Source: Rhodoferax lithotrophicus
Lineage (GTDB): Bacteria; Pseudomonadota; Gammaproteobacteria; Burkholderiales; Burkholderiaceae_C
Assembly (NCBI RefSeq): GCF_019973615.1
Contig: NZ_AP024238.1
Location: 3,679,989 to 3,743,988 of the forward strand
Length of the DNA stretch: 64,000 nucleotides
Direction of reading: 5' to 3'
Positions within the stretch are counted from its first letter, which is position 1; every line of letters begins with the position of its first letter. The position numbers were made by a program, and so were the translations under genes. Below are positions 8,757 through 59,770 of the stretch, in pieces. The notes under the pieces are model-generated. The model had not been told where the DNA came from. It was given only the letters and a program-made list of their open reading frames with translations, and ran no database searches.

Positions 8757-10097
8757 TCACACCCGCACCTCCCCCTCACCCAACACCACGTATTTAAGTG
8801 AGGTCAGGCCTTCAATGCCAACCGGGCCACGGGCGTGAAACTTGTCGGTGCTGATGCCAATTTCGGCCCCCAGGCCGTACTCAAAACCATCGGCAAAACG
8901 GGTGCTGGTGTTGACCATGACGCTGGCCGAATCCACCTCACGCAGGAACTGCTGGGCATGCATGTGGTCACGGGTCAGGATGGCATCGGTGTGGTGGGAT
9001 GAATACTGGTTGATGTGGGCAATCGCCTCGTCCACACCGGCCACCACCTTGATGCTGATGATCGGGGCCAGGTACTCTTCAAACCAGTCGGCTTCACTGG
9101 CAGCCACCAATACCGGAGCCTTATGCGCTACACAATCAATAGCTTTTTGCGCTTTATCTACAAGGGCTAGAGGCAGATTTTGCTTCAAAATATCAAGCGC
9201 TTGAGGGTCGCAGCGCATCTCCACGCCCTTGTCAGCATAAATCTGGCCGATCAGCGGCAAAAATTCGGCCGCCACACCGTGCGCCACCAGCAGACTCTCG
9301 GTGGCGTTGCAAGGGCTGTACTTGTCGGTCTTGGCGTTGTCGGCCACTTTGACCGCCATGGCGATGTCACAGGGGTCATCCACATAGGTGTGGCAATTGC
9401 CGTCCAGGTGCTTGATGACCGGTACCTTGGCCTCGCGGCTGATGCGCTCGATCAAGCCTTTGCCACCACGCGGAATGATCACGTCCACAAACTGCGGCAT
9501 GGCAATCAACTGGCCAACCACCTCGCGGTCGGTGGTTTGCACCAGTTGCACGGCGTTGGCGGGCAAGCCGGATTCAGTGAGCGCCTGCTGCACCAGCCGG
9601 GCCAGCGCCTTGTTGGAGTCAATCGCTTCCGAGCCGCCACGCAGGATGCAGGCGTTGCCACTCTTGATGCTTAAGGAGGCGGCCTCAATCGTCACATTTG
9701 GTCGACTCTCAAAGATCATGCCAAACACACCAATCGGCACACGCATCTGACCGACACGAATGCCGCTGGGCTGCTGGCGCAGGGCGGTGATTTCACCAAT
9801 GATGTCGGCCATGGCAGCCAGTTGCTCGCAGCCCTGGGCGCAGGTCTCGATCACCTTGGGGGTGAGTTTGAGCCGGTCTACCATCGGCGCGGCCAGGCCA
9901 GCGGCCACGGCACGTTCAATGTCTTTGGCGTTGTCGATCTGCAAGGCATCCACGTTGGCACGCAGCAGCTCGGCAAGTTTTTTGAGTGCTGCGTTTTTGA
10001 TAGCTGCCGGCGCTTTAGCCATCAGCGCAGAGGCCTGTTTGGCTTGTAAACCCAGGGTCTGGGTGAGGGTGCTGATGTCAGATGTGTTTATGGTCAT
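8757..10097 (-). CDS. proA: Gamma-glutamyl phosphate reductase (glutamate-5-semialdehyde dehydrogenase)
   Basis: ProA reduces glutamyl-5-phosphate to glutamate semialdehyde in proline synthesis, using NADPH, in the cytosol. The sequence has the family blocks [28 protein letters not shown], and the catalytic-Cys segment [11 protein letters not shown]. At 446 residues it is about 30 longer than E. coli ProA (417). The surplus lies around [19 protein letters not shown], between two well-conserved regions, and its DNA (9133-9184) is a copy of the dispersed repeat found elsewhere in the window. The insert keeps the frame and avoids the stop that a consensus copy would carry. proB is not nearby. 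It converges with the kinase gene. Confidence 0.96.
9133..9184 (+). repeat. Dispersed hairpin repeat, copy inside proA
   Basis: AATAGCTTTTTGCGCTTTAT followed by CTACAAGGGCTAGAGGC matches the repeat family core (TAGCTGCTTGCGC...AAGCGCTAGAGGC). It lies inside proA on the opposite strand, read as residues [14 protein letters not shown] consensus copy read this way would contain TAA. This copy has GATAAAGCG instead, so the frame stays open. Confidence 0.7.
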
Positions 10098-13564: not shown

Positions 13565-14743
13565 ATGTATCGTTACACTCTTTTTTTAATAGCTATACAC
13601 GCTTTCTGCTCAAGCGCTATAGCCCAAAATGATCATAAAAATACGGCCACACCAGAGAACAGCGGCTGGCAGCAGTGCACCAACCTCGTCGCCGACCCCA
13701 GCGCCCGATTGCAGTGTTTTGATACCTGGGCTGCACAACAGCCCCAGCCAGCACCCGCCCAGACTTCGGCCGCACCACCTGACACTCCAGCAGCCGCTGC
13801 CCACCACCTGGCTGCCGAATCAGCGTTACCAACCACCACGCCAGTGGTCATCACCATGACCGCACCGGAGGCTCACAACTGCAAGAACACCAGATTCACT
13901 GAACTCTCACGCTTTTGGGAACTGGAAGCCGGGAGCGACTGCGGCACTTTTGGTATTCGCGGATTTCGCCCCATCAGTTTGAGCTGGATTGGTTCCGACA
14001 GCGTCAACACCCAGCCCACCTCGCCTTCGGCAACCAATAACGCACCCATAGCCGTACCTTACAAAACCACCGAGACACGCATGAGCTTGTCGGTGCGTAC
14101 GAAAATTGCCCAAGGGCTGCTCACCCAGGAGTCCCCCCTCAAACGCGACTCCGTCTGGTTTGCTTATTCACAACAATCCAACTGGCAATTGTTCAGCGGC
14201 GATTTGTCGCGTCCGTTTCGCACCACCGACCATGAACCCGAGCTGATCTATATCTATCCCACCGACGCGCCACTGCCCTGGGGCTGGCGCTGGCGCTACA
14301 GCGGGATCAGCCTGAATCACCAGTCCAATGGCCAGCCGCTGCCTTACTCTCGCAGCTGGAACCGGACCATCCTGATGGCGGGTATGGAAAAAGGCAACGA
14401 ATTCCAAGTGCAGGCCAAGTTCTGGCAGCGCCTGCCGGAAAACGCAGCCGATGACGACAACCCCGACATCACCGATCTGATGGGGCGCGCCGAAGTGGCT
14501 GGCTTCTGGAACGTCAATGCCGACAACACCCTGGGGCTGACGCTGCGCCATTCATTACAGGCCAACGCCAACGGCTCCATCAAACTGGAATGGCTGAAAA
14601 AACTGGGTGACAGCGGTGTCCCGGGCAACCAGAGTGGTCTGCGCTTTCACACCCAGTTTTTCAGCGGCTACGGCGACTCCCTGATCGACTACAACCGTCG
14701 GCGTACTGTTTTGAGTGTGGGTTTGAGTCTGGTGGATTGGTAA
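13565..14743 (+). CDS. pldA: Outer-membrane phospholipase A (PldA/OMPLA)
   Basis: OMPLA is a beta-barrel enzyme of the outer membrane that hydrolyses phospholipids mislocalised to the outer leaflet. The 392-residue protein has a signal peptide cut after about A20 (SSAIA-Q), then a Pro/Ala-rich spacer, then the barrel. The active site reads LNHQSNGQ, corresponding to the His and Ser of E. coli GFNHDSNG, and the tail has the YGDSLIDYN signature with a final aromatic residue (LVDW). The Cys-containing N-terminal region with LVADPSARLQCFDTWA is common in betaproteobacterial PldA. The DNA for the signal peptide (13581-13641) is a copy of the dispersed repeat, so the export signal appears to derive from it. 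Confidence 0.93.
   Translation: MYRYTLFLIAIHAFCSSAIAQNDHKNTATPENSGWQQCTNLVADPSARLQCFDTWAAQQPQPAPAQTSAAPPDTPAAAAHHLAAESALPTTTPVVITMTAPEAHNCKNTRFTELSRFWELEAGSDCGTFGIRGFRPISLSWIGSDSVNTQPTSPSATNNAPIAVPYKTTETRMSLSVRTKIAQGLLTQESPLKRDSVWFAYSQQSNWQLFSGDLSRPFRTTDHEPELIYIYPTDAPLPWGWRWRYSGISLNHQSNGQPLPYSRSWNRTILMAGMEKGNEFQVQAKFWQRLPENAADDDNPDITDLMGRAEVAGFWNVNADNTLGLTLRHSLQANANGSIKLEWLKKLGDSGVPGNQSGLRFHTQFFSGYGDSLIDYNRRRTVLSVGLSLVDW
13581..13641 (+). repeat. Dispersed hairpin repeat, copy encoding the PldA signal peptide
   Basis: AATAGCTATACACGCTTTCT and CTCAAGCGCTATAGCCC match the family core, with the poly-T before and the AAAA after also retained. It is read in frame as LIAIHAFCSSAIAQ. The same frame of the copy at 58597-58660 gives LIASCAYTTSATAQ, also a signal peptide. 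Confidence 0.65.
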
Positions 14744-25905: not shown

Positions 25906-26299
25906 CCAAGGATCTCCGCTGTGTTTTTAAGACTCCACGTTGATGTTTGGCATCCAATCGCCGCTTGGTTGAAGCCCGCGTCGGCTTGGTCGGCTTGCGG
26001 TCTTTGGGCGGCTGGGCCACGCTGTTGACCAGCTCGTGCAGGCGGATCAGCGCATCAAAGCGGTTCATCTCTTGCGTGCGGTGCTGCTGCGCCTTGAGCA
26101 CCAGCACGCCGTCTTTGCTGATGCGGCTGTCGTGCAGCGCCAGCAGACGCTGCTTGACATCCGGTGGCAGGCTGGAAGCGGCAATGTCAAAACGCAGGTG
26201 AATCGCGCTGGAGACCTTGTTGACGTTTTGCCCCCCAGCCCCCTGGGCGCGGATGGCGCTCAAGGATATCTCTTCGGGGGGGATTCTCAATGCTTCCAT
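25898..26299 (-). CDS. arfB: Alternative ribosome-rescue factor ArfB (peptidyl-tRNA hydrolase)
   Basis: ArfB (YaeJ) releases ribosomes stalled on mRNAs without stop codons. The 133-residue protein has the GGQ motif in RAQGAGGQNVNKVSSAIHLR and a basic C-terminal tail (KPTKPTRASTKRRLDAKHQR) that enters the empty mRNA channel. Both are diagnostic. The 32 bases between the trhP stop and this start consist of the dispersed repeat, leaving no recognisable ribosome site, so expression may depend on read-through from trhP or be weak. Confidence 0.95.
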   Translation of the reverse strand: MEALRIPPEEISLSAIRAQGAGGQNVNKVSSAIHLRFDIAASSLPPDVKQRLLALHDSRISKDGVLVLKAQQHRTQEMNRFDALIRLHELVNSVAQPPKDRKPTKPTRASTKRRLDAKHQRGVLKTQRRSLDD

Positions 26300-26343
26300 T
26301 TTGATAGCTGCTTGCGCTTATTTATCAAGCGCTAGGGGACTAA
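26299..26343 (+). repeat. Dispersed hairpin repeat, copy between trhP and arfB
   Basis: A near-consensus copy with the perfect stem GCGCTT / AAGCGC around ATTTATC. On the minus strand it supplies the trhP stop codon (TAG at 26334-26332, from the CTAG of the repeat) and occupies the whole trhP-arfB gap. Confidence 0.8.
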
Positions 26344-27702
26344 AACACTCTCAACATCGGGAACCACGACCTCGGGCGGGTGAATGTAGCGTGCCACAAA
26401 CGCGCCCACCGCGCTCTCGGGCAAGGGCAACCACACGATGTGGCCGCTGCCTGGGGCCACCGGCATGGCCGCGCCGTCGGTGCTCTCCATGCGTTCCAGC
26501 AGCACATCCACATTACCAGCCGGGGCAATGATCTCCAGCCAGTCACCCACGGCAAAGCGGTTTTTCACGGCCACCTGGGCCAGGCCACGCGCCGCATCAA
26601 AACCGACCACGTCGCCCACGTACAGGCTGCGGCCCGACTCGGAGTAGCCGCGCAGGTAGTTTTGCGTGGCCTCGGGGGTGTGGCGCTGGAAAAAGCCGCT
26701 GGTGTAGCCACGGTTGGCCAGGCCTTCGAGCTGGCCGAGCAATTCGGGGTTGAGCTCGCGCCCGGCCACTGCATCGTCAATCGCGCGGCGGTAGCTTTGC
26801 ACCGTGCGAGCCACGTAATACGGGCTTTTGGTGCGGCCTTCGATCTTGAGCGAATCCACGCCGATTTCCACCAGGCGTTTGACGTGTTCGATGGCCCGCA
26901 AGTCTTTGCTGTTCATCACGTAGGTGCCGTGCTCGTCTTCTTCAATCGGCATGTAGCTGCCCTCGCGCTGGCTTTCTTCGATCATGTAGACCTGATCGGC
27001 CTCGGGCGAGCGCTCAAGGGCTTCCTGCTCACGCGCCTGCGCGGCTTGCTGGGTCAGCACATCACCCGAGGCATCGACCACGCCTTTTTGCGTCTTGTAA
27101 TCCCAGCGGCAGGAATTGGTACAACTGCCCTGGTTCGCATCACGATGGTTGAAATAGCCCGACAGCAGGCAGCGGCCCGAGTAGGCAATACACAGTGCGC
27201 CGTGCACAAAGACTTCCAGCTCCATGTCGGGGCAGGCCTGGCGGATTTCTTCCACCTGATCGAGTGACAACTCGCGCGACAGAATGATGCGCTTCAAGCC
27301 GACCTTTTGCCAGAATTTGACCGCCGCCGAGTTGACGGTGTTGGACTGCACCGAGAGGTGAATCTCCATCTCGGGCCAGGTCTCGCGCACCATCATGATC
27401 AGGCCGGGGTCAGACATGATCATCGCGTCGGGCTTCAAGGCAATCACTGGTGCCATGTTGTCGATGTAGTGCCGGATCTTGTTGCCGTGCGGGAAAATGT
27501 TGCTCACCAGGAAGAACTTGGCCCCCTTGGCGTGCGCCGTGTCAATGCCCTGCTTGAGCACATTGATGTCGCCAAAGTCGTTGTTGCGCACACGCAAGCT
27601 GTAGCGCGGCTGGCCAGCGTAGATGGCGGTCGCGCCAAAGGCCAGCGCGGTTTCCAGCATGGTCAAAGAGCCTGCCGGGGCCAGCAGTTCGGGGGTTTTC
27701 AT
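26332..27702 (-). CDS. trhP: U32 peptidase-family tRNA hydroxylation protein TrhP (YegQ)
   Basis: TrhP is needed for prephenate-dependent hydroxylation of uridine 34 in some tRNAs. The protein has 456 residues from the ATG at 27702, matching E. coli YegQ closely: KTPELLAPAGS, YAGQPRYSLRVRNN, IMSDPGLIMMVRE, ILSRELSLDQVEEIR, FVHGALCIAYSGRCLLSGY and the Cys cluster GSCTNSCRW for the iron-sulfur site. An ATG at 27723 would add seven residues not in the family. The last codons read VLVP and the stop falls in the dispersed repeat. It heads the minus-strand set with arfB and the c-di-GMP genes. Confidence 0.94.
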   Translation of the reverse strand: MKTPELLAPAGSLTMLETALAFGATAIYAGQPRYSLRVRNNDFGDINVLKQGIDTAHAKGAKFFLVSNIFPHGNKIRHYIDNMAPVIALKPDAMIMSDPGLIMMVRETWPEMEIHLSVQSNTVNSAAVKFWQKVGLKRIILSRELSLDQVEEIRQACPDMELEVFVHGALCIAYSGRCLLSGYFNHRDANQGSCTNSCRWDYKTQKGVVDASGDVLTQQAAQAREQEALERSPEADQVYMIEESQREGSYMPIEEDEHGTYVMNSKDLRAIEHVKRLVEIGVDSLKIEGRTKSPYYVARTVQSYRRAIDDAVAGRELNPELLGQLEGLANRGYTSGFFQRHTPEATQNYLRGYSESGRSLYVGDVVGFDAARGLAQVAVKNRFAVGDWLEIIAPAGNVDVLLERMESTDGAAMPVAPGSGHIVWLPLPESAVGAFVARYIHPPEVVVPDVESVLVP

Positions 27703-28104: not shown

Positions 28105-28950
28105 ATGAGACCCTTCTTCCTTGCCATGGCAGCCACCCTCTCCATCACCAGTGCCGCGGTCGGCGCGCAGCCGCTGGCACCCGTTGGCGAAATCAAGGGA
28201 GATGCCTGGGTTCACACCCCAGAATCACTCGCCGCCACCGTACAACAAGCCGATGTCTGCCTACCCCCTGCCACAGCGGGCGGCACCGGGTTTTGCGGCA
28301 AGTTCAAGGACATCCCCAAGCAGGCAGGCACGGCGTTCCCGGTGATCGTCTTTCTGCACGGGTCGTCCGGCCTGGGGCTCAAGGCCATCGGTGAGTGGCA
28401 GCAATGGCTGGCCAGCCTGGGTTATGCCAGCGTCGCCCCCAATTCGTTCACCCTGGCAGGCCACGTCACCTACAAGTCACCGATTGACAAAGATGCGTAT
28501 GAAAAAATCCTGGCTCTGCGCGCCTCTGAAATTGCGCCAACGCTGACAGCGTTAAAAAGCCAAAGCTGGGCCGACCCCGCCCGCCTGATTCTGGCAGGCA
28601 CCAGCGAAGGTGCGGTGCCGGTGGCCCGTTACACGGGTACGGAATTCGTGGCGCGCATGTTGTTCGCCTGGAGCTGCGAGGCCAACTACTTCGTCAAAGA
28701 ACCGCTGAACGCGTTTGAGCCCGGCAAACCCGTGCTCAACGTCATCAGCGCCACCGACCCATTTTTCTCCCGCAGCAACACCTGGCTGGGCAACCCACAG
28801 GCCGAAGGCCACTGCGGAGCAGCGCTAAAAGACAACCCACGCGCCGCCGTTCTTTTGGTGCCCAATGCGCCACACACGTTGCTCAATTTACCCGCCGCAC
28901 GCAGCGCTACTGCGGGATTTTTGGCGCTGCTTGGAAAGGCCAAGCCCTGA
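28105..28950 (+). CDS. Secreted dienelactone-hydrolase-like alpha/beta hydrolase
   Basis: 281 residues with a signal peptide (cut near VGA-Q, residue 21), so probably periplasmic. Hydrolase landmarks are the oxyanion segment FLHGSSGLG, the nucleophile elbow GTSEGA (Ser), an Asp in ISATDPFFS, and the His in NAPHTLLN, consistent with a Ser-Asp-His triad. The Cys pairs suggest disulfides. The substrate is unknown; dienelactone hydrolase relatives act on various esters. It appears to be a single gene behind a palindromic operator candidate. Confidence 0.8.
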   Translation: MRPFFLAMAATLSITSAAVGAQPLAPVGEIKGDAWVHTPESLAATVQQADVCLPPATAGGTGFCGKFKDIPKQAGTAFPVIVFLHGSSGLGLKAIGEWQQWLASLGYASVAPNSFTLAGHVTYKSPIDKDAYEKILALRASEIAPTLTALKSQSWADPARLILAGTSEGAVPVARYTGTEFVARMLFAWSCEANYFVKEPLNAFEPGKPVLNVISATDPFFSRSNTWLGNPQAEGHCGAALKDNPRAAVLLVPNAPHTLLNLPAARSATAGFLALLGKAKP

Positions 28951-28954
28951 TTTT

Positions 28955-29020
28955 ATAAGCGGTTTCCGCTACTTTAGATATAGCTTCCAACGCTGATTTT
29001 AAAAGGGCTACAGGGTGTTT
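28955..29020 (+). repeat. Dispersed repeat, diverged copy after the hydrolase gene
   Basis: ATATAGCTTCCAACGCTGAT then TTTAAAAGGGCTACAGGG resembles the copy at 50107 (GAGCTACCAACGCTTATTTT...CTCTAGAGG). It directly follows a plus-strand stop codon. Confidence 0.45.
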
Positions 29021-29357
29021 TTCATCAAAACTATAGAAGTTTGGGTGCCACACGCACTTGGTTCATGGATGACGCATCAAAAGTGACTCTGATGCCGCAC
29101 GCTGTGGGCTATAGTGGTTCCACTTCGGCTCGGGTAGATTTACTCGATACACACACCAAGTTGCCAGGATTGGCGACCAGACACACAGGGACGGCGATGA
29201 AATTCATTGCTTCAATCAACACACGGCAGATGCCATCGGCATCCGGCTTGGCGCGCTATCGAGCGAGTCGTGCGTTTTGACCCAATGCGTTTTTATACCG
29301 TCGTCAAAGCTGCAATCGCCAGAATAGACGACTGTCAACATTGAGTAGGTTGCATAA
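29021..29357 (+). other. Intergenic region at the left edge of a small accessory island
   Basis: About 340 bases without a credible gene. An open frame starting with TTG at 29041 (79 codons) has no family likeness and no ribosome site. The stretch may hold decayed sequence and the promoter of the next gene. Confidence 0.35.
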
Positions 29358-34058: not shown

Positions 34059-34127
34059 ATACTACATTTTTTATAGCTACTTGCGCATACATTACAAGCT
34101 CTAGAGGCCAATTTTTTTTATAAAAAT
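34059..34127 (+). repeat. Dispersed hairpin repeat behind metY, terminator-like
   Basis: CACCTGAATACTA (34051-34063) precedes TATAGCTACTTGCGC, then CTCTAGAGGCC and a run of eight T. The leading CACCTGAATACTA also precedes the copy at 41848, so the repeating unit is longer than its core. The stem plus T-run directly after metY may act as its terminator. Confidence 0.75.
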
Positions 34128-48769: not shown

Positions 48770-49255
48770 ATGCAACTCAAGCTCATTTTTGCCCGCGCCG
48801 CCAACGGTGTGATTGGCCATCACAACACCCTGCCCTGGCATTTGCCCGAAGACATGGCGCATTTCAAACGCACCACGCTGGGCTGTCCAGTGATTATGGG
48901 GCGCAAAACCTGGGATTCCCTGCCACCCAGGTTTCGCCCCTTGCCGGGGCGGCTCAACGTGGTGGTGACCCGCCAGGCGGGTTGGACGGCAGACGGTGCG
49001 GTGGTCGCCCACTCGCTTGAGGCCGCGTGTGCCGCCTGCCCGGTTGACAGTACCGCCTGGGTGATAGGTGGTGCCGAGATTTACGCCCAGGCTCTATCGC
49101 TGGCCAGCGTCGCCGTGGTGACCGAGCTGGCGGACAACTTTGAAGGTGATGCCTTCGCACCAGTCTTTGGCCCGGACTGGGTGGAAACCGAACGTCAGCC
49201 CCAGACCAGTACGAACGGTTTGCACTTCAGCTTTGTAACCTATCAAAAACAATAG
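48770..49255 (+). CDS. folA: Dihydrofolate reductase
   Basis: 161 residues from the ATG at 48770. DHFR landmarks are LIFARAANGVIGHHNTLPWH, LPEDMAHFKRTTLG, PVIMGRKTWDSLP and the AWVIGGAEIYAQAL segment. It regenerates tetrahydrofolate after ThyA. The stop TAG (CAA TAG) falls within the dispersed repeat that fills the gap to the exonuclease gene. The extension upstream of the ATG belongs to the transporter. Confidence 0.97.
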   Translation: MQLKLIFARAANGVIGHHNTLPWHLPEDMAHFKRTTLGCPVIMGRKTWDSLPPRFRPLPGRLNVVVTRQAGWTADGAVVAHSLEAACAACPVDSTAWVIGGAEIYAQALSLASVAVVTELADNFEGDAFAPVFGPDWVETERQPQTSTNGLHFSFVTYQKQ

Positions 49256-49293
49256 CTGCTTGCGCTTATTTATCAAGCATTAGAGACCCAAAT
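49249..49293 (+). repeat. Dispersed hairpin repeat, copy at the end of folA
   Basis: AATAGCTGCTTGCGCTTATT and TATCAAGCATTAGAGACC is near consensus. AATAG holds the folA stop codon, and the copy fills the gap to the exonuclease start. Confidence 0.8.
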
Positions 49294-49296
49294 ATC

Positions 49297-50094
49297 ATGA
49301 AATTTGCTACCTGGAACGTGAACTCACTCACCGTGCGCCTGCCGCAGGTACTGGACTGGCTGGCAGCCAACCCGGTGGATGTGCTGGCCTTGCAAGAGCT
49401 CAAATTGACCGACGACAAGTTCCCCCATGCGGCCTTCCAGGCGGCGGGCTACGAGTCGGTCTGTTTTGGCCAGAAAACCTACAACGGCGTGGCGCTGATC
49501 AGCCGCGCTCCAGCACAAGACATCGTGCGCAACATTCCGGGTTTCAGCGATGACATGGCACGTGTGATCAGCGCCAGTTTTCCCCTGGCGACCTCCGCAG
49601 CGGACGGCGCTCCATCCAGCGTGCGCATCGTCGGCGCGTATTTTCCCAACGGGCAGGAGCCCGGCAGCGACAAGTTTGAGTACAAACTGGCCTGGCTTCA
49701 AGGTCTGCGTGCCTGGCTGCGCACCGAATTGGTGACACACCCCAAACTGATTCTGATGGGGGACTACAACATCACCTTTGATGATGCCGATGTCTGGGAC
49801 CCCGAAGGTATGCGTGACCAGATTCACTGCACCGATGAAGAACGTTATGAACTCGGTGCCCTGATCGCCCTGGGTTTGGCCGATGCGCACCGCTTGTTCC
49901 CGCAAGCGCCCAAAAGCTATTCGTGGTGGGATTACCGTGACTTTGGCTTCAAACGCAACCGGGGCATGCGTATTGACCACATTCTGCTCAGCCAAGCACT
50001 CAAACCGTTGGCCAAGGCCTGCTGGATTGACAAAACCCCGCGCAAGAACGAACGCCCTAGCGATCATGCGCCTGTCATTGTCGAGTTGGCCTGA
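49297..50094 (+). CDS. xthA: Exodeoxyribonuclease III (ExoIII/AP endonuclease)
   Basis: 265 residues. ExoIII cuts at abasic sites and trims 3' ends in base-excision repair. It shows ATWNVNSLTVRLPQVLDWL, LQELKLTDDKFP, GAYFPNGQEPGSDKFEYKLAW, GDYNITFDDADVWD, DYRDFGFKRNRGMRIDHILL and SDHAPV, the metal-binding and catalytic residues of the family. The start lies just after the repeat copy at the end of folA. The next gene, ntrC, converges from the other side, with a further repeat copy between. Confidence 0.95.
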   Translation: MKFATWNVNSLTVRLPQVLDWLAANPVDVLALQELKLTDDKFPHAAFQAAGYESVCFGQKTYNGVALISRAPAQDIVRNIPGFSDDMARVISASFPLATSAADGAPSSVRIVGAYFPNGQEPGSDKFEYKLAWLQGLRAWLRTELVTHPKLILMGDYNITFDDADVWDPEGMRDQIHCTDEERYELGALIALGLADAHRLFPQAPKSYSWWDYRDFGFKRNRGMRIDHILLSQALKPLAKACWIDKTPRKNERPSDHAPVIVELA

Positions 50095-50106
50095 TCTACG
50101 CTCTGT

Positions 50107-50157
50107 TTATAAGAGCTACCAACGCTTATTTTGTAAGCTCTAGAGGCTAATTTTCCT
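50107..50157 (+). repeat. Dispersed repeat, copy between xthA and ntrC
   Basis: ATAAGAGCTACCAACGCTTA then TGTAAGCTCTAGAGGC followed by TAATTTTCC. The minus-strand gene ntrC ends in it. Its stop TAG (50149-50147) comes from the GGCTAATTTT edge. Confidence 0.7.
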
Positions 50158-51649
50158 CAAGACCAAGCTCCTGGATTTTGCGCGTGATGGTGTTGCGCCC
50201 GATGCCCAGCTTTTGGGCGGCTTCAATACGCCGGCCTCGGGTTGCAGCCAAGGCTGAATGAATCAGGCACGACTCAAAACGTGCCGTCAGCACATCCCAC
50301 ACATCAGTGCGGTCAGTAGCCAGCAACGCATTGGCTTCTTCAATCAACCCTTGTTCCCAGGCTTGTGGCGTGTGTGGTGTAGCCGCTTCCACGGCAACAG
50401 CGGTATGAACCACTGGAGCTGTCGGAACAGCTACAGGCGCTACAGGCGCGGGGCTGGCGGGGCTGGCGGGGCTGGCAGGAATCAGGATTTCATCCACCGC
50501 CACTTCCGGCGGTAAATCCTTGGCTTCAATCACCTGCGCCGGTGCCATCACCGTCAGCCAGTGGCAAATATTTTCCAGTTGGCGCACATTGCCGGGAAAC
50601 GCAAATTTACCCAACCACAGCAACGCAGCATCCGAGATGCGCTTGGGCTCCACCCCCAACTGGCGGGCGCTTTGCTGCAAGAAATGCCGGGTCAGCATCG
50701 GAATGTCTTCTAGCCGCTCACGCAAGGCCGGCAAGCGAAGGCGGATCACGTTCAGGCGGTGAAACAAATCCTCACGGAACACGCCATCCTTGACCCGCTG
50801 CTCCAGGTTCTGGTGCGTAGCGGCAATCACCCGCACATTGGTTTTGACCGCACTGTGTCCACCCACGCGGTAAAAATGACCATCTGACAAGACCCGCAGC
50901 AACCGGGTTTGCAGGTCAAATGGCATGTCACCAATTTCATCCAGAAACAGGGTGCCGCCATCGGCTTGCTCAAAGCGGCCACGGCGCATGGTTTGCGCCC
51001 CGGTGAAGGCGCCACGCTCATGGCCAAACAGCTCAGACTCCAGCAAATCCTTCGGAATGGCGGCGGTGTTGATGGCCACAAAGGGCCCATTGGCACGCGG
51101 CGAGTGTTTGTGCAGCGCACGCGCCACCAGTTCTTTGCCCGAACCGGATTCACCGGTGATCATGACCGTGACATTGCTTTGGCTCAAACGGCCAATCGCA
51201 CGAAACACATCCTGCATGGCCGGTGCCTGACCGAGCATCTCCGGTGTATCAACCGTCAGCTCTTCTCGAACCTCTTCGCGTTGACTTTCTTCGACCGCAC
51301 GGCGAATCAGCTCCACGGCTTTGGACAAGTCAAACGGTTTGGGCATGTACTCAAACGCGCCCCCCTGAAAAGCAGACACCGCGCTGTCCAGATCCGAATA
51401 AGCGGTCATGATGATCACAGGCAGCCCCGGGAACTTCGCCTTGACCTTGTCCAGCAGCTCCAGGCCCGAACCGCCAGGCATGCGAATATCACTCACCAAC
51501 ACCTGAGGGGGGTTGTCGTCTTCCTCCAGTGCCAAGAGCACATCACGGGCATTGGTGAAACTGCGGCTGGGCAACTGCTCACGCAACAGGGCTTTTTCCA
51601 GCACGAAGCGAATCGACTGGTCATCGTCTACGATCCAAATGGGTTTCAT
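50147..51649 (-). CDS. ntrC: Nitrogen regulation response regulator NtrC (sigma-54 activator)
   Basis: NtrC activates nitrogen-starvation promoters with sigma-54. 500 residues from the ATG at 51649: receiver (1-120) with D54 in VLVSDIRMPG, AAA+ domain with GESGSGKE and the sigma-54 contact GAFTGA, and a C-terminal Fis-type HTH (AAQKLGIGRNTITRKIQEL). A Pro/Ala linker near 405-440 carries three PAS triplets from a 9-base tandem repeat. An extension to 51700 is not needed. The stop falls in the dispersed repeat. It ends the glnA-ntrB-ntrC run, 79 bases after ntrB. Confidence 0.96.
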   Translation of the reverse strand: MKPIWIVDDDQSIRFVLEKALLREQLPSRSFTNARDVLLALEEDDNPPQVLVSDIRMPGGSGLELLDKVKAKFPGLPVIIMTAYSDLDSAVSAFQGGAFEYMPKPFDLSKAVELIRRAVEESQREEVREELTVDTPEMLGQAPAMQDVFRAIGRLSQSNVTVMITGESGSGKELVARALHKHSPRANGPFVAINTAAIPKDLLESELFGHERGAFTGAQTMRRGRFEQADGGTLFLDEIGDMPFDLQTRLLRVLSDGHFYRVGGHSAVKTNVRVIAATHQNLEQRVKDGVFREDLFHRLNVIRLRLPALRERLEDIPMLTRHFLQQSARQLGVEPKRISDAALLWLGKFAFPGNVRQLENICHWLTVMAPAQVIEAKDLPPEVAVDEILIPASPASPASPAPVAPVAVPTAPVVHTAVAVEAATPHTPQAWEQGLIEEANALLATDRTDVWDVLTARFESCLIHSALAATRGRRIEAAQKLGIGRNTITRKIQELGLEEN

Positions 51650-51728
51650 CACGTTGTGTTGCCTTCGGTTTTGCCTGCACCTGCCGAACGCCTCACACAC
51701 CGGGCAGTGTGCTTGAATCGTCCCGCAG

Positions 51729-57850: not shown

Positions 57851-58687
57851 CTAGCCTCCTGCGGTAGATGGTTTTGGGGCACCTGCACGCGATAACCACT
57901 CCCGATAGGCCGGGTGTTCACGGAGCGTGGCAAAACAAAAACCACGTTCCTTGAGCCCAATAATCAGGGGCTCCAACACCGCCGGTGCCCAGGGATCTTG
58001 CCGCGACCAGATACCCAGATGCGCAACCAGAATGTCACCCGCGCGAATATCACGCAAGGCCTTGGCCAACAAATCTGCGTTGCTGAATTGATCACTGGGC
58101 AACTCATCCCCCAAAAAACCGGCAGGGGGCCAACCCACGTGGGCAAAACCGCAGGCTTTTGCGGCAGCCAGCAGTTTGGGTGATGTTTTACCACCTGGTG
58201 CACGAAACAAGGGCAAGGGCTGCTGGCCGGTGATGTCTTTCAGACGTTCATTGGCGTGCTCCAGTTGCTGGCAATATTGCGCAGCCGTCCAGGTGAAATC
58301 ACGCCCGGCCAAAGCACCTGCGCTGGGCCGCACCCGGAAGGAGGGTTTGACACCAGGCAGGTCAGCGCGCCAATAAACATGGTCATAGGTATGACTGGCA
58401 AATTCATGCCCCTCTGCAGCACGCGCCTTCCACCAGGATGCCCAATGCTGACCCAAACTGCCATCACCAACCTTGGTGCGCTCATTGGCGGCAAAAAAGG
58501 TTACCCGCACCCCTTGTCGATGCAAGATGTCAGCCATCAGCGGTGCCACCTCCATATGACCCGTGTCCAGCGTCAGGTAAACCGGTTTTTCACATGTTTT
58601 TTGGGCTGTAGCGCTTGTTGTATAAGCGCAAGAAGCTATCAATAAAATAGCTAATTTATGGCCTGTCGAATTACTGGCGTGCAGCAT
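57851..58687 (-). CDS. Secreted polysaccharide deacetylase
   Basis: 278 residues from the ATG at 58687. A signal peptide is cut after about A28 (ATA-Q). The NodB-homology fold follows with LTLDTGHMEV (Asp), HEFASHTYDH (His pair of the metal site), the FRAPGG loop and a C-terminal DILVAHLG motif. It should remove N-acetyl or O-acetyl groups from a glycan in the periplasm. The DNA for the signal peptide is a repeat copy (58597-58660). It overlaps the propeller gene upstream by 17 bases and abuts the hydroxylase gene downstream. Confidence 0.9.
   Translation of the reverse strand: MLHASNSTGHKLAILLIASCAYTTSATAQKTCEKPVYLTLDTGHMEVAPLMADILHRQGVRVTFFAANERTKVGDGSLGQHWASWWKARAAEGHEFASHTYDHVYWRADLPGVKPSFRVRPSAGALAGRDFTWTAAQYCQQLEHANERLKDITGQQPLPLFRAPGGKTSPKLLAAAKACGFAHVGWPPAGFLGDELPSDQFSNADLLAKALRDIRAGDILVAHLGIWSRQDPWAPAVLEPLIIGLKERGFCFATLREHPAYREWLSRAGAPKPSTAGG
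58597..58660 (-). repeat. Dispersed hairpin repeat, copy encoding the deacetylase signal peptide
   Basis: Minus-strand TTGATAGCTTCTTGCGCTTA followed by AACAAGCGCTACAGCCC is near consensus with the stem GCGCTT/AAGCGC intact. It is read in frame as LLIASCAYTTSATAQ, the hydrophobic core and cleavage site of the signal peptide. PldA uses the same frame of its own copy. Confidence 0.8.
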
Positions 58688-59645
58688 GATCCAGTGTCCA
58701 GACCCCGTGGGGGGATTTTCCGACCTTGACCTGGTGCACCACTTTGTGCAAGCGGGTGTCAATAACGCTGAGTTTGCCTACCCAGCGTGAGGCCACATAA
58801 ATGAAATGACCGTCGGGGGTAACCTCCATGTCATCCGGGCCATCGGGTGCCGGGTAGCTGTCCACCACCGTCATGCTCTGGTAATCGATCTTGCTGATGG
58901 TGTTGCCAACGCGGTTGCTCACAAGCACATGGCGTTTGTCCCCCACGGCGCGAAAGGAGTGTGCCCCTGCCCCGGTTTTCAGCAATTTGACAAATTTTGG
59001 CGTGGGGCCGGTTATGTCGTAAATCTCGACACCCACGCCCCCCGTCAGTGCCACCAGCAAAAACTTGTCGTCCGGTGTGCCAAACACATCGGCTGGCAAA
59101 GAGCCGGTGGGATGTCGCCATTGGAGGGTCTGGGTTGCAAGGTCAATGGCGATCAGCTCATTACTGTCCTGCATCGTGGAATAGACCGTCCGGCTGCCGC
59201 TGTCGATCCAGACGTGACTGGGTGTTTTGCCACTTGAAATGCGTTTGGCCAAAGTCAGGTTGAGGCCATCCCAGTGGTAAATGTCCACGTGGTTGAGCCG
59301 ATTGCCATTGATGACAAACCATTTCATGTCCGGTGAAAACCGCAGTTGATAGGGGTCCAGAATGCCGGTCACCGTACGCTGCACGACCGCAGTTCTAGGG
59401 TCGATAAACGACAAAGAGTCGCTCAAGGCATTGGCAATAATGAGCGATTTTTCGTCCGGTGTCAGGTACAGGTGATGTGGTTCTTTGCCGGTAGGAATGC
59501 GTTTAAGCTCCGTCCAGCTCACCGGGTCGACCACACTGACATTGGCATCCAGTGAATTGAGCACAAACACCGGCGGTGCAGCCAGCACCTGGCATGACAG
59601 CGCACAGGCCACTGAAGTCATTAAAAAAGTGAGCAATTGACGCAC
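58671..59645 (-). CDS. Secreted YVTN-type beta-propeller protein
   Basis: 324 residues from a GTG at 59645, with AAGG upstream. The signal peptide ends near VLA-A (residue 22 or so). The mature part is about seven propeller blades with the YVTN/NHL pattern (VVDPVSWTELKRIPTGKEPH, then VTGILDPYQLRFSPDMKWF, GSLPADVFGTPDDKFLLVA, GPDDMEVTPDGHFIYVASRW). A start at 59705 would add a basic extension without a signal. The function is unknown; such propellers bind partners or haem. It overlaps the deacetylase gene by 17 bases, first gene of the operon. Confidence 0.88.
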   Translation of the reverse strand: MRQLLTFLMTSVACALSCQVLAAPPVFVLNSLDANVSVVDPVSWTELKRIPTGKEPHHLYLTPDEKSLIIANALSDSLSFIDPRTAVVQRTVTGILDPYQLRFSPDMKWFVINGNRLNHVDIYHWDGLNLTLAKRISSGKTPSHVWIDSGSRTVYSTMQDSNELIAIDLATQTLQWRHPTGSLPADVFGTPDDKFLLVALTGGVGVEIYDITGPTPKFVKLLKTGAGAHSFRAVGDKRHVLVSNRVGNTISKIDYQSMTVVDSYPAPDGPDDMEVTPDGHFIYVASRWVGKLSVIDTRLHKVVHQVKVGKSPHGVWTLDHAARQ

Positions 59646-59770
59646 ATTGGGCCTTGATAAAAAAAAGGAAAAACGGTGAGATGAATGGCCCGATTCAGGC
59701 CGCACAAGTCATCTGTTGACAAGCAAAATGGCGCGCGAGTGTAGCGCTTTGGGGATGCCACAAACCGCCC

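Follow-up and report, generated by a model that had tools for sequence, protein, structure and literature searches.

Rickettsia palindromic elements (RPEs; Ogata, Audic, Barbe et al. 2000) are Rickettsia-specific repeats of 105–146 bp (PMC2229807, PMC3733652, PMC10969869), and in Yersinia the 168-bp element RU-2/YPAL provides YPO1552, a 144-aa protein, with a repeat-derived predicted signal peptide (Delihas 2007, PMC2759123). Here we describe a dispersed palindromic repeat of Rhodoferax lithotrophicus (Comamonadaceae), found in a 64-kb stretch of its genome (64,000 nucleotides of contig NZ_AP024238.1, positions 3,679,989 to 3,743,988; hereafter the window), that has very probably been recruited in frame as the signal peptide of several unrelated exported proteins, including the outer-membrane phospholipase PldA and a polysaccharide deacetylase. 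It resembles RPEs in being a short palindromic interspersed repeat that stands in frame within many unrelated protein genes and is read through, but it shares neither the length nor the host of the RPE family: it measures about 70 nt, occurs in Comamonadaceae, lies mostly between genes and uses two open frames. Its repeated use as a signal peptide also sets it apart, as the excerpted RPE descriptions (PMC2229807, PMC3733652, PMC10969869) report none. As with RU-2 in YPO1552, the signal peptides of relatives are unrelated to the repeat (PMC2759123); unlike RU-2, which concerns one main locus, the present repeat serves several known exported families and has copies in different genera, and its case is backed by chance controls and by before/after comparisons.

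Two other described sequences come from the same group of bacteria. An unexplained spaced motif pair, GCTTAT(N)5AAGCG, was reported in Acidovorax ebreus, with a high motif count in Rhodoferax ferrireducens (PMC5217627). It matches the core of our repeat (GCTTATTTATCAAGCG in the copy at 26289), is mostly intergenic and often lies between convergent genes, and, judged from the motif, is probably the same repeat, although neither the limits of an element nor coding frames or signal peptides were described for it (PMC5217627). The beta-proteobacterial repeat element (BRE) is about 90 bp long, has 69% G+C in Bordetella, is partly tandem and has four copies in R. ferrireducens (PMC3110155). Like our repeat it is interspersed in Comamonadaceae (BRE also in Bordetella), with some copies in coding sequences, but its description sets it apart from the present repeat, which is A+T-rich, dispersed and far more numerous; these differences in composition and copy number led us to reject the idea that the repeat is BRE. 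A first-pass annotation of the window, made from the sequence alone, had known of no named description of such a case for Comamonadaceae. Among open-licence PMC papers we likewise found none with the repeat core sequence or naming the repeat for this family, but the phenomenon is not without precedent in kind, given RU-2 in YPO1552 (PMC2759123). New here are the Comamonadaceae family, the repeated recruitment and the before/after comparisons; in-frame palindromes and one repeat-derived predicted signal peptide were known.

A repeat profile built from the copies in the window finds nine matches there at E ≤ 3.5e-10, eight of them solid (Table 1) and the ninth, at 9986–10050, probably due to chance. 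The first-pass annotation had claimed that pldA and the deacetylase gene carry copies of one dispersed repeat in the same frame, and this proved correct: both segments are homologous to the repeat at the DNA level and are read in one and the same repeat frame, and the frame consensus proposed earlier, LIAACAYLSSARG, agrees with the independently derived LIAACACLTSARG-Q. PldA begins MYRYTLFLIAIHAFCSSAIAQ, with its hydrophobic segment encoded by the repeat, and scores 3.31 by a home-made signal-peptide rule (charge in the n-region, uncharged h-region and small residues at −3/−1; cut-off 2.2). The deacetylase begins MLHASNSTGHKLAILLIASCAYTTSATAQ and scores 3.66 by the same rule. The 5′ end of its gene overlaps the 3′ end of an upstream beta-propeller gene (58671–59705; overlap 58671–58687), and this start region is kept in orthologues both with and without the repeat signal peptide.

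Table 1. Genes and solid repeat copies in the window (positions in the window; E values of repeat copies from the profile search).
Feature	Position	Strand	Support
pldA, outer-membrane phospholipase A1, 392 aa	13565..14743	+	PF02253 E=1.3e-83
Repeat copy, pldA signal peptide h-region and cleavage region (LIAIHAFCSSAIAQ)	13574..13639	+	nhmmer E=1e-11; 29.6 bits
Polysaccharide deacetylase, 278 aa from ATG	57851..58687	-	PF01522 E=1.5e-20
Repeat copy, polysaccharide deacetylase signal peptide (AILLIASCAYTTSATAQ)	58589..58652	-	nhmmer E=1e-14; 48.3 bits
proA, gamma-glutamyl phosphate reductase, host of the insertion at 9124	8757..10097	-	best solved homologue 4ghk_A E=2.7e-151
Repeat copy within proA, read on the minus strand in the second open frame; no signal peptide	9124..9190	+	nhmmer E=7.4e-15
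Repeat copy between two genes, near consensus	26289..26355	+	E=3.4e-15
Intergenic repeat copy, downstream of gene 28105-28950	28966..29031	+	E=7.6e-13
Intergenic repeat copy	34059..34123	+	E=7.7e-14
Repeat copy between genes; gives the upstream gene its last codons and stop; just before the ATG of the gene at 49297	49247..49302	+	E=3.1e-11
Repeat copy between genes 49297-50094 and 50147-51700	50097..50162	+	E=3e-14

The profile was then refined on a 1.66-Mb sample (1–1.2 Mb and 3.48–3.94 Mb of the genome, a single contig of 4.94 Mb; about a third). At a threshold of at least 12 bits, the refined profile matched 312 copies in this sample and none in the reversed sequence, and genome-wide the 17-nt repeat core, with up to three mismatches, gave 332 matches versus six for the reversed pattern. 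Scaled by proportion, the genome would hold about 900 copies. With the signal-peptide frame defined by an ATA codon, aligned copies end sharply at −16 and +53 nt from that codon's first base, giving the length of about 70 nt. The 59-nt consensus, TGCTATAAAATTAATAGCTGCTTGCGCTTGTTTAACAAGCGCTAGAGGCCAATTTTATA, forms one hairpin (−13.2 kcal/mol, z = −3.6; none of 200 shuffles equally stable), and two of its six reading frames are open. As to terminal inverted repeats of the MITE type, the consensus ends TATAAAATT and AATTTTATA pair, but single copies are degenerate, with a mean identity of 72% to the consensus. No covariation of the hairpin was found among copies within the R. lithotrophicus genome. 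In the related genomes G055, G024 and G031 the stem varies between copies, with GCGCTT/AAGCGC and GCCCTT/AAGGGC, which may reflect compensatory changes in the hairpin from one species to another. Rfam 15 gave no match in the window above its gathering score. Among relatives, many of them metagenome-assembled genomes, the distribution is patchy, with the strict pattern present in 34 of 151 genomes in a sample of the family and 30 of 61 in a sample of the genus, and the reversed pattern matching once overall.

In relatives that lie outside the lineages bearing the repeat, both PldA and the deacetylase carry signal peptides of unrelated sequence. Repeat-coded PldA peptides (20–42 bits) occur in Rhodoferax (R. 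antarcticus among them) and in two sister genera, with the named relatives found through pldA being mostly Rhodoferax; another, longer peptide (RLAQAAGLA..AQAQ type) is present in G006, G032, G036 and G037 of the same genus and in several outgroups. In a deacetylase tree of 39 rows, 13 have the repeat-coded peptide (in several genera), nine have weaker traces and the others are unrelated. A third gene, for a solute-binding protein, has the repeat peptide in four genomes (35–48 bits); in G039, whose genome gave no repeat match, the mature part is 78% identical and the signal peptide unrelated, a clear case of signal-peptide replacement. Repeat-type signal peptides also persist in G026, G037 and G172, genomes without a strict repeat match. 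Recruitment as first proposed thus withstood comparison with relatives, but it is not local to the R. lithotrophicus genome: it is old, and several genera show it.

The repeat has a built-in likeness to a signal peptide. Its sense open frame encodes AIKLIAACACLTSARG-Q, in which a hydrophobic stretch precedes an Ala-x-Gly/Ala site (LIAACAxLTSARG-Q), and when open non-coding copies in this frame were prefixed with MKK, 25 of 76 (33%) passed the signal-peptide rule, compared with 2% of base-shuffled copies or other intergenic DNA, 4% of random in-frame coding segments and 0–7% for the other repeat frames. By this crude measure the earlier suggestion that a few changes suffice is well founded, as a third of these copies pass unchanged. 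Because one open frame is already signal-peptide-like, signal peptides are over-represented among in-frame copies. A scan of the sampled sequence for copies at signal peptides, put forward in the first-pass annotation, found 10 of 58 in-frame copies of at least 20 bits at N termini that pass the rule, compared with the 2.1% of coding length that consists of such segments (P = 3e-7). We dropped one of these, in MoaC (545020–545724), where the start is probably wrong and the domain begins only at residue 86; 9 of 58 remain (P = 3e-6), and 7 of 56 without the two window genes (P = 1.6e-4). The proteins concerned belong to exported families: two solute-binding proteins, a TctC receptor, SCO1/SenC, PldA and the deacetylase with copies in the sense frame, and DUF4136, DUF2147 and another solute-binding protein with copies in the antisense frame. 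The TctC receptor and SCO1/SenC genes adjoin each other (genome 3825349–3827474), and both signal peptides are repeat-derived. None of the six sense-frame signal-peptide copies has Arg at codon +10, which 48% of open non-coding copies do have. Charged residues in codons 0 to +7, present in 44% of non-coding copies, are likewise absent from all six (small numbers in both cases); hydropathy did not differ significantly between the six and the non-coding copies (P = 0.09).

Signal peptides are one part of a general in-frame insertion of the repeat into coding genes, so that recruitment stands but pldA and the deacetylase gene are not a special case of two, as had first been supposed. Among the 271 aligned copies, 162 do not run into any gene. 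Another 34 are read in the sense frame (AIKLIAACACLTSARGQFY) and 44 in a single antisense frame (NWPLALVKQAQAAINFIA), the only two frames open in the consensus; the remaining frame classes are few and mostly at gene ends. The repeat-coded residues of ProA form a segment absent from (unaligned to) the solved structure 4ghk, and among Rhodoferax ProA orthologues about 20 have a repeat-like insert and four a short empty site. TrpA has 18 residues at its repeat without counterpart in the solved structure 5ey5, and DapF and tRNA nucleotidyltransferase have shorter extra segments at their copies. In another genus (G168), a 400-kb sample uses the same two frames inside genes. The neighbouring trpF, trpB and trpA (assigned by sequence; L174/L175, genome 3578291–3581226) have one in-frame copy each, that of trpB being C-terminal. 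About ten genes terminate within a repeat copy, which supplies their stop codon (for example, after LLNK or LQNK; copies at 911830, 795273, 888071 and 3650822).

Ala/Leu/Ile-rich signal peptides might resemble the repeat codons by chance, all the more as the sense frame is intrinsically signal-peptide-like. We consider such convergence hardly credible, and for pldA and the deacetylase gene it is refuted at the DNA level. As a control, the same residues were recoded with random synonymous codons, 3,000 times under each of two codon usages, and scored with a 250-copy repeat model. For each of seven signal-peptide genes (pldA, the deacetylase gene and five more), none of the 3,000 recodings under either codon model reached the real score; the pldA copy scores 29.6 bits against a maximum of 15.1 over 6,000 recodings, and the deacetylase copy 48.3 bits against a maximum of 28.3. 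This amounts to the shuffled-signal-peptide control that the first-pass annotation had named among its refuting conditions, and it excludes chance. Over all 1,547 called coding sequences there are 53 real matches of at least 27 bits, whereas 0.6 (codons permuted within genes) or 0.0 (codons drawn) are expected per recoding, and every counted signal-peptide case reaches at least 27 bits. At 22 bits, 0.2–1.8 chance matches are expected, and one match does look like chance: the N-terminal stretch of proA at 9986–10050 scores 22.6 bits, about the coding-DNA background, and aligns without gaps to a ProA homologue, and we rejected it as a repeat copy. This stretch also beat its own 3,000 recodings; a single-gene control is therefore insufficient when a whole genome is scanned, and further cases were judged by the all-gene control with its 27-bit limit. 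The stretch is a warning for matches near 22 bits in general.

The relationship could also run in the reverse direction, with a signal-peptide-coding segment as the origin of the dispersed repeat, and the repeat-type signal peptide of the deacetylase does span many genera, of which some have few other copies or none. This appears very improbable, as the repeat is a full-length palindrome with sharp ends of its own, most copies are non-coding or in another frame, and the signal-peptide copies look derived, all six lacking the codon +10 Arg that nearly half of the open non-coding copies keep. Alternatively, copies may have been placed or kept for a function in DNA or RNA, as a terminator, an mRNA hairpin or a site of protein binding, with the coding outcome a tolerated by-product. 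Conservation along the repeat is very uneven, with AGC at +2 to +4 in more than 97% of copies and adjoining positions varying freely, and intergenic copies are scarce between divergent genes (15, versus 51 between convergent and 96 between co-directional genes), both of which hint at a constraint on DNA or RNA. This possibility, which we think rather unlikely overall, may still hold for intergenic copies, but it leaves the over-representation of signal peptides unexplained, and the pldA orthologues L067, L068, L069 and L077, which have lost the DNA score, still encode a hydrophobic core and small residues at the site preceding Q, which it does not explain either.

We favour recruitment of the repeat as a signal peptide, which could have proceeded as follows. 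A palindromic sequence of about 70 nt, non-autonomous but able to spread, would land mostly between genes; landing in frame in a coding sequence, it would add some 17–18 residues and be kept where these are tolerated. Where the gene codes for an exported protein and the copy lies at its 5′ end, the copy could take over as signal peptide after a few substitutions, with Arg lost, Lys replaced by hydrophobic residues and Gly by Ala before the cut, and the older signal peptide would then be lost. The cases of pldA, the deacetylase, a solute-binding protein and several other exported proteins would be separate events, and selection on export would keep the peptide after the DNA likeness, or the repeat family itself, has faded. 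We infer insertion rather than templated copying, with selection acting on the peptides, and the protein families involved (an outer-membrane phospholipase, periplasmic binding proteins) suggest that the repeat-derived peptides direct Sec export.

Several points weigh against this account. The signal-peptide predictor is a crude home-made rule, and the gene caller, also home-made and codon-based, misplaced some starts. Neither a target duplication nor a mobilising enzyme was identified, parent elements having been sought only among Y1 transposases. A RAYT (Y1 transposase) as mobiliser, as for REP sequences, was not supported: the R. lithotrophicus genome has a single, divergent Y1_Tnp gene, and such genes are no commoner in repeat-bearing genomes than in repeat-free ones. 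The G168 sample, with its in-frame insertions, gave no signal-peptide case. The pldA and deacetylase trees are compatible with different numbers of gains, and horizontal gene transfer could explain part of the scatter. Finally, the data fit both an element that inserted into the older signal peptide and one that overwrote it.

Many sequences can replace signal peptides, and to our knowledge the origin of new ones is rarely seen. The source is traceable here, with intergenic copies as the starting material and relatives that have the older peptide as the comparison. Annotation is affected as well, as the starts of repeat-derived signal peptides are easily missed; our codon-based gene caller trimmed off those of both pldA and the deacetylase. 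Free-living betaproteobacteria join the short list of lineages that tolerate a palindromic repeat inside conserved enzymes. More broadly, the repeat family may well be a standing store of ready-made signal peptides in Comamonadaceae, with a sense frame already suited to export, whose repeated in-frame capture would, over long evolutionary periods, have replaced the older ones of many unrelated exported proteins and whose signals would outlive the repeat itself.
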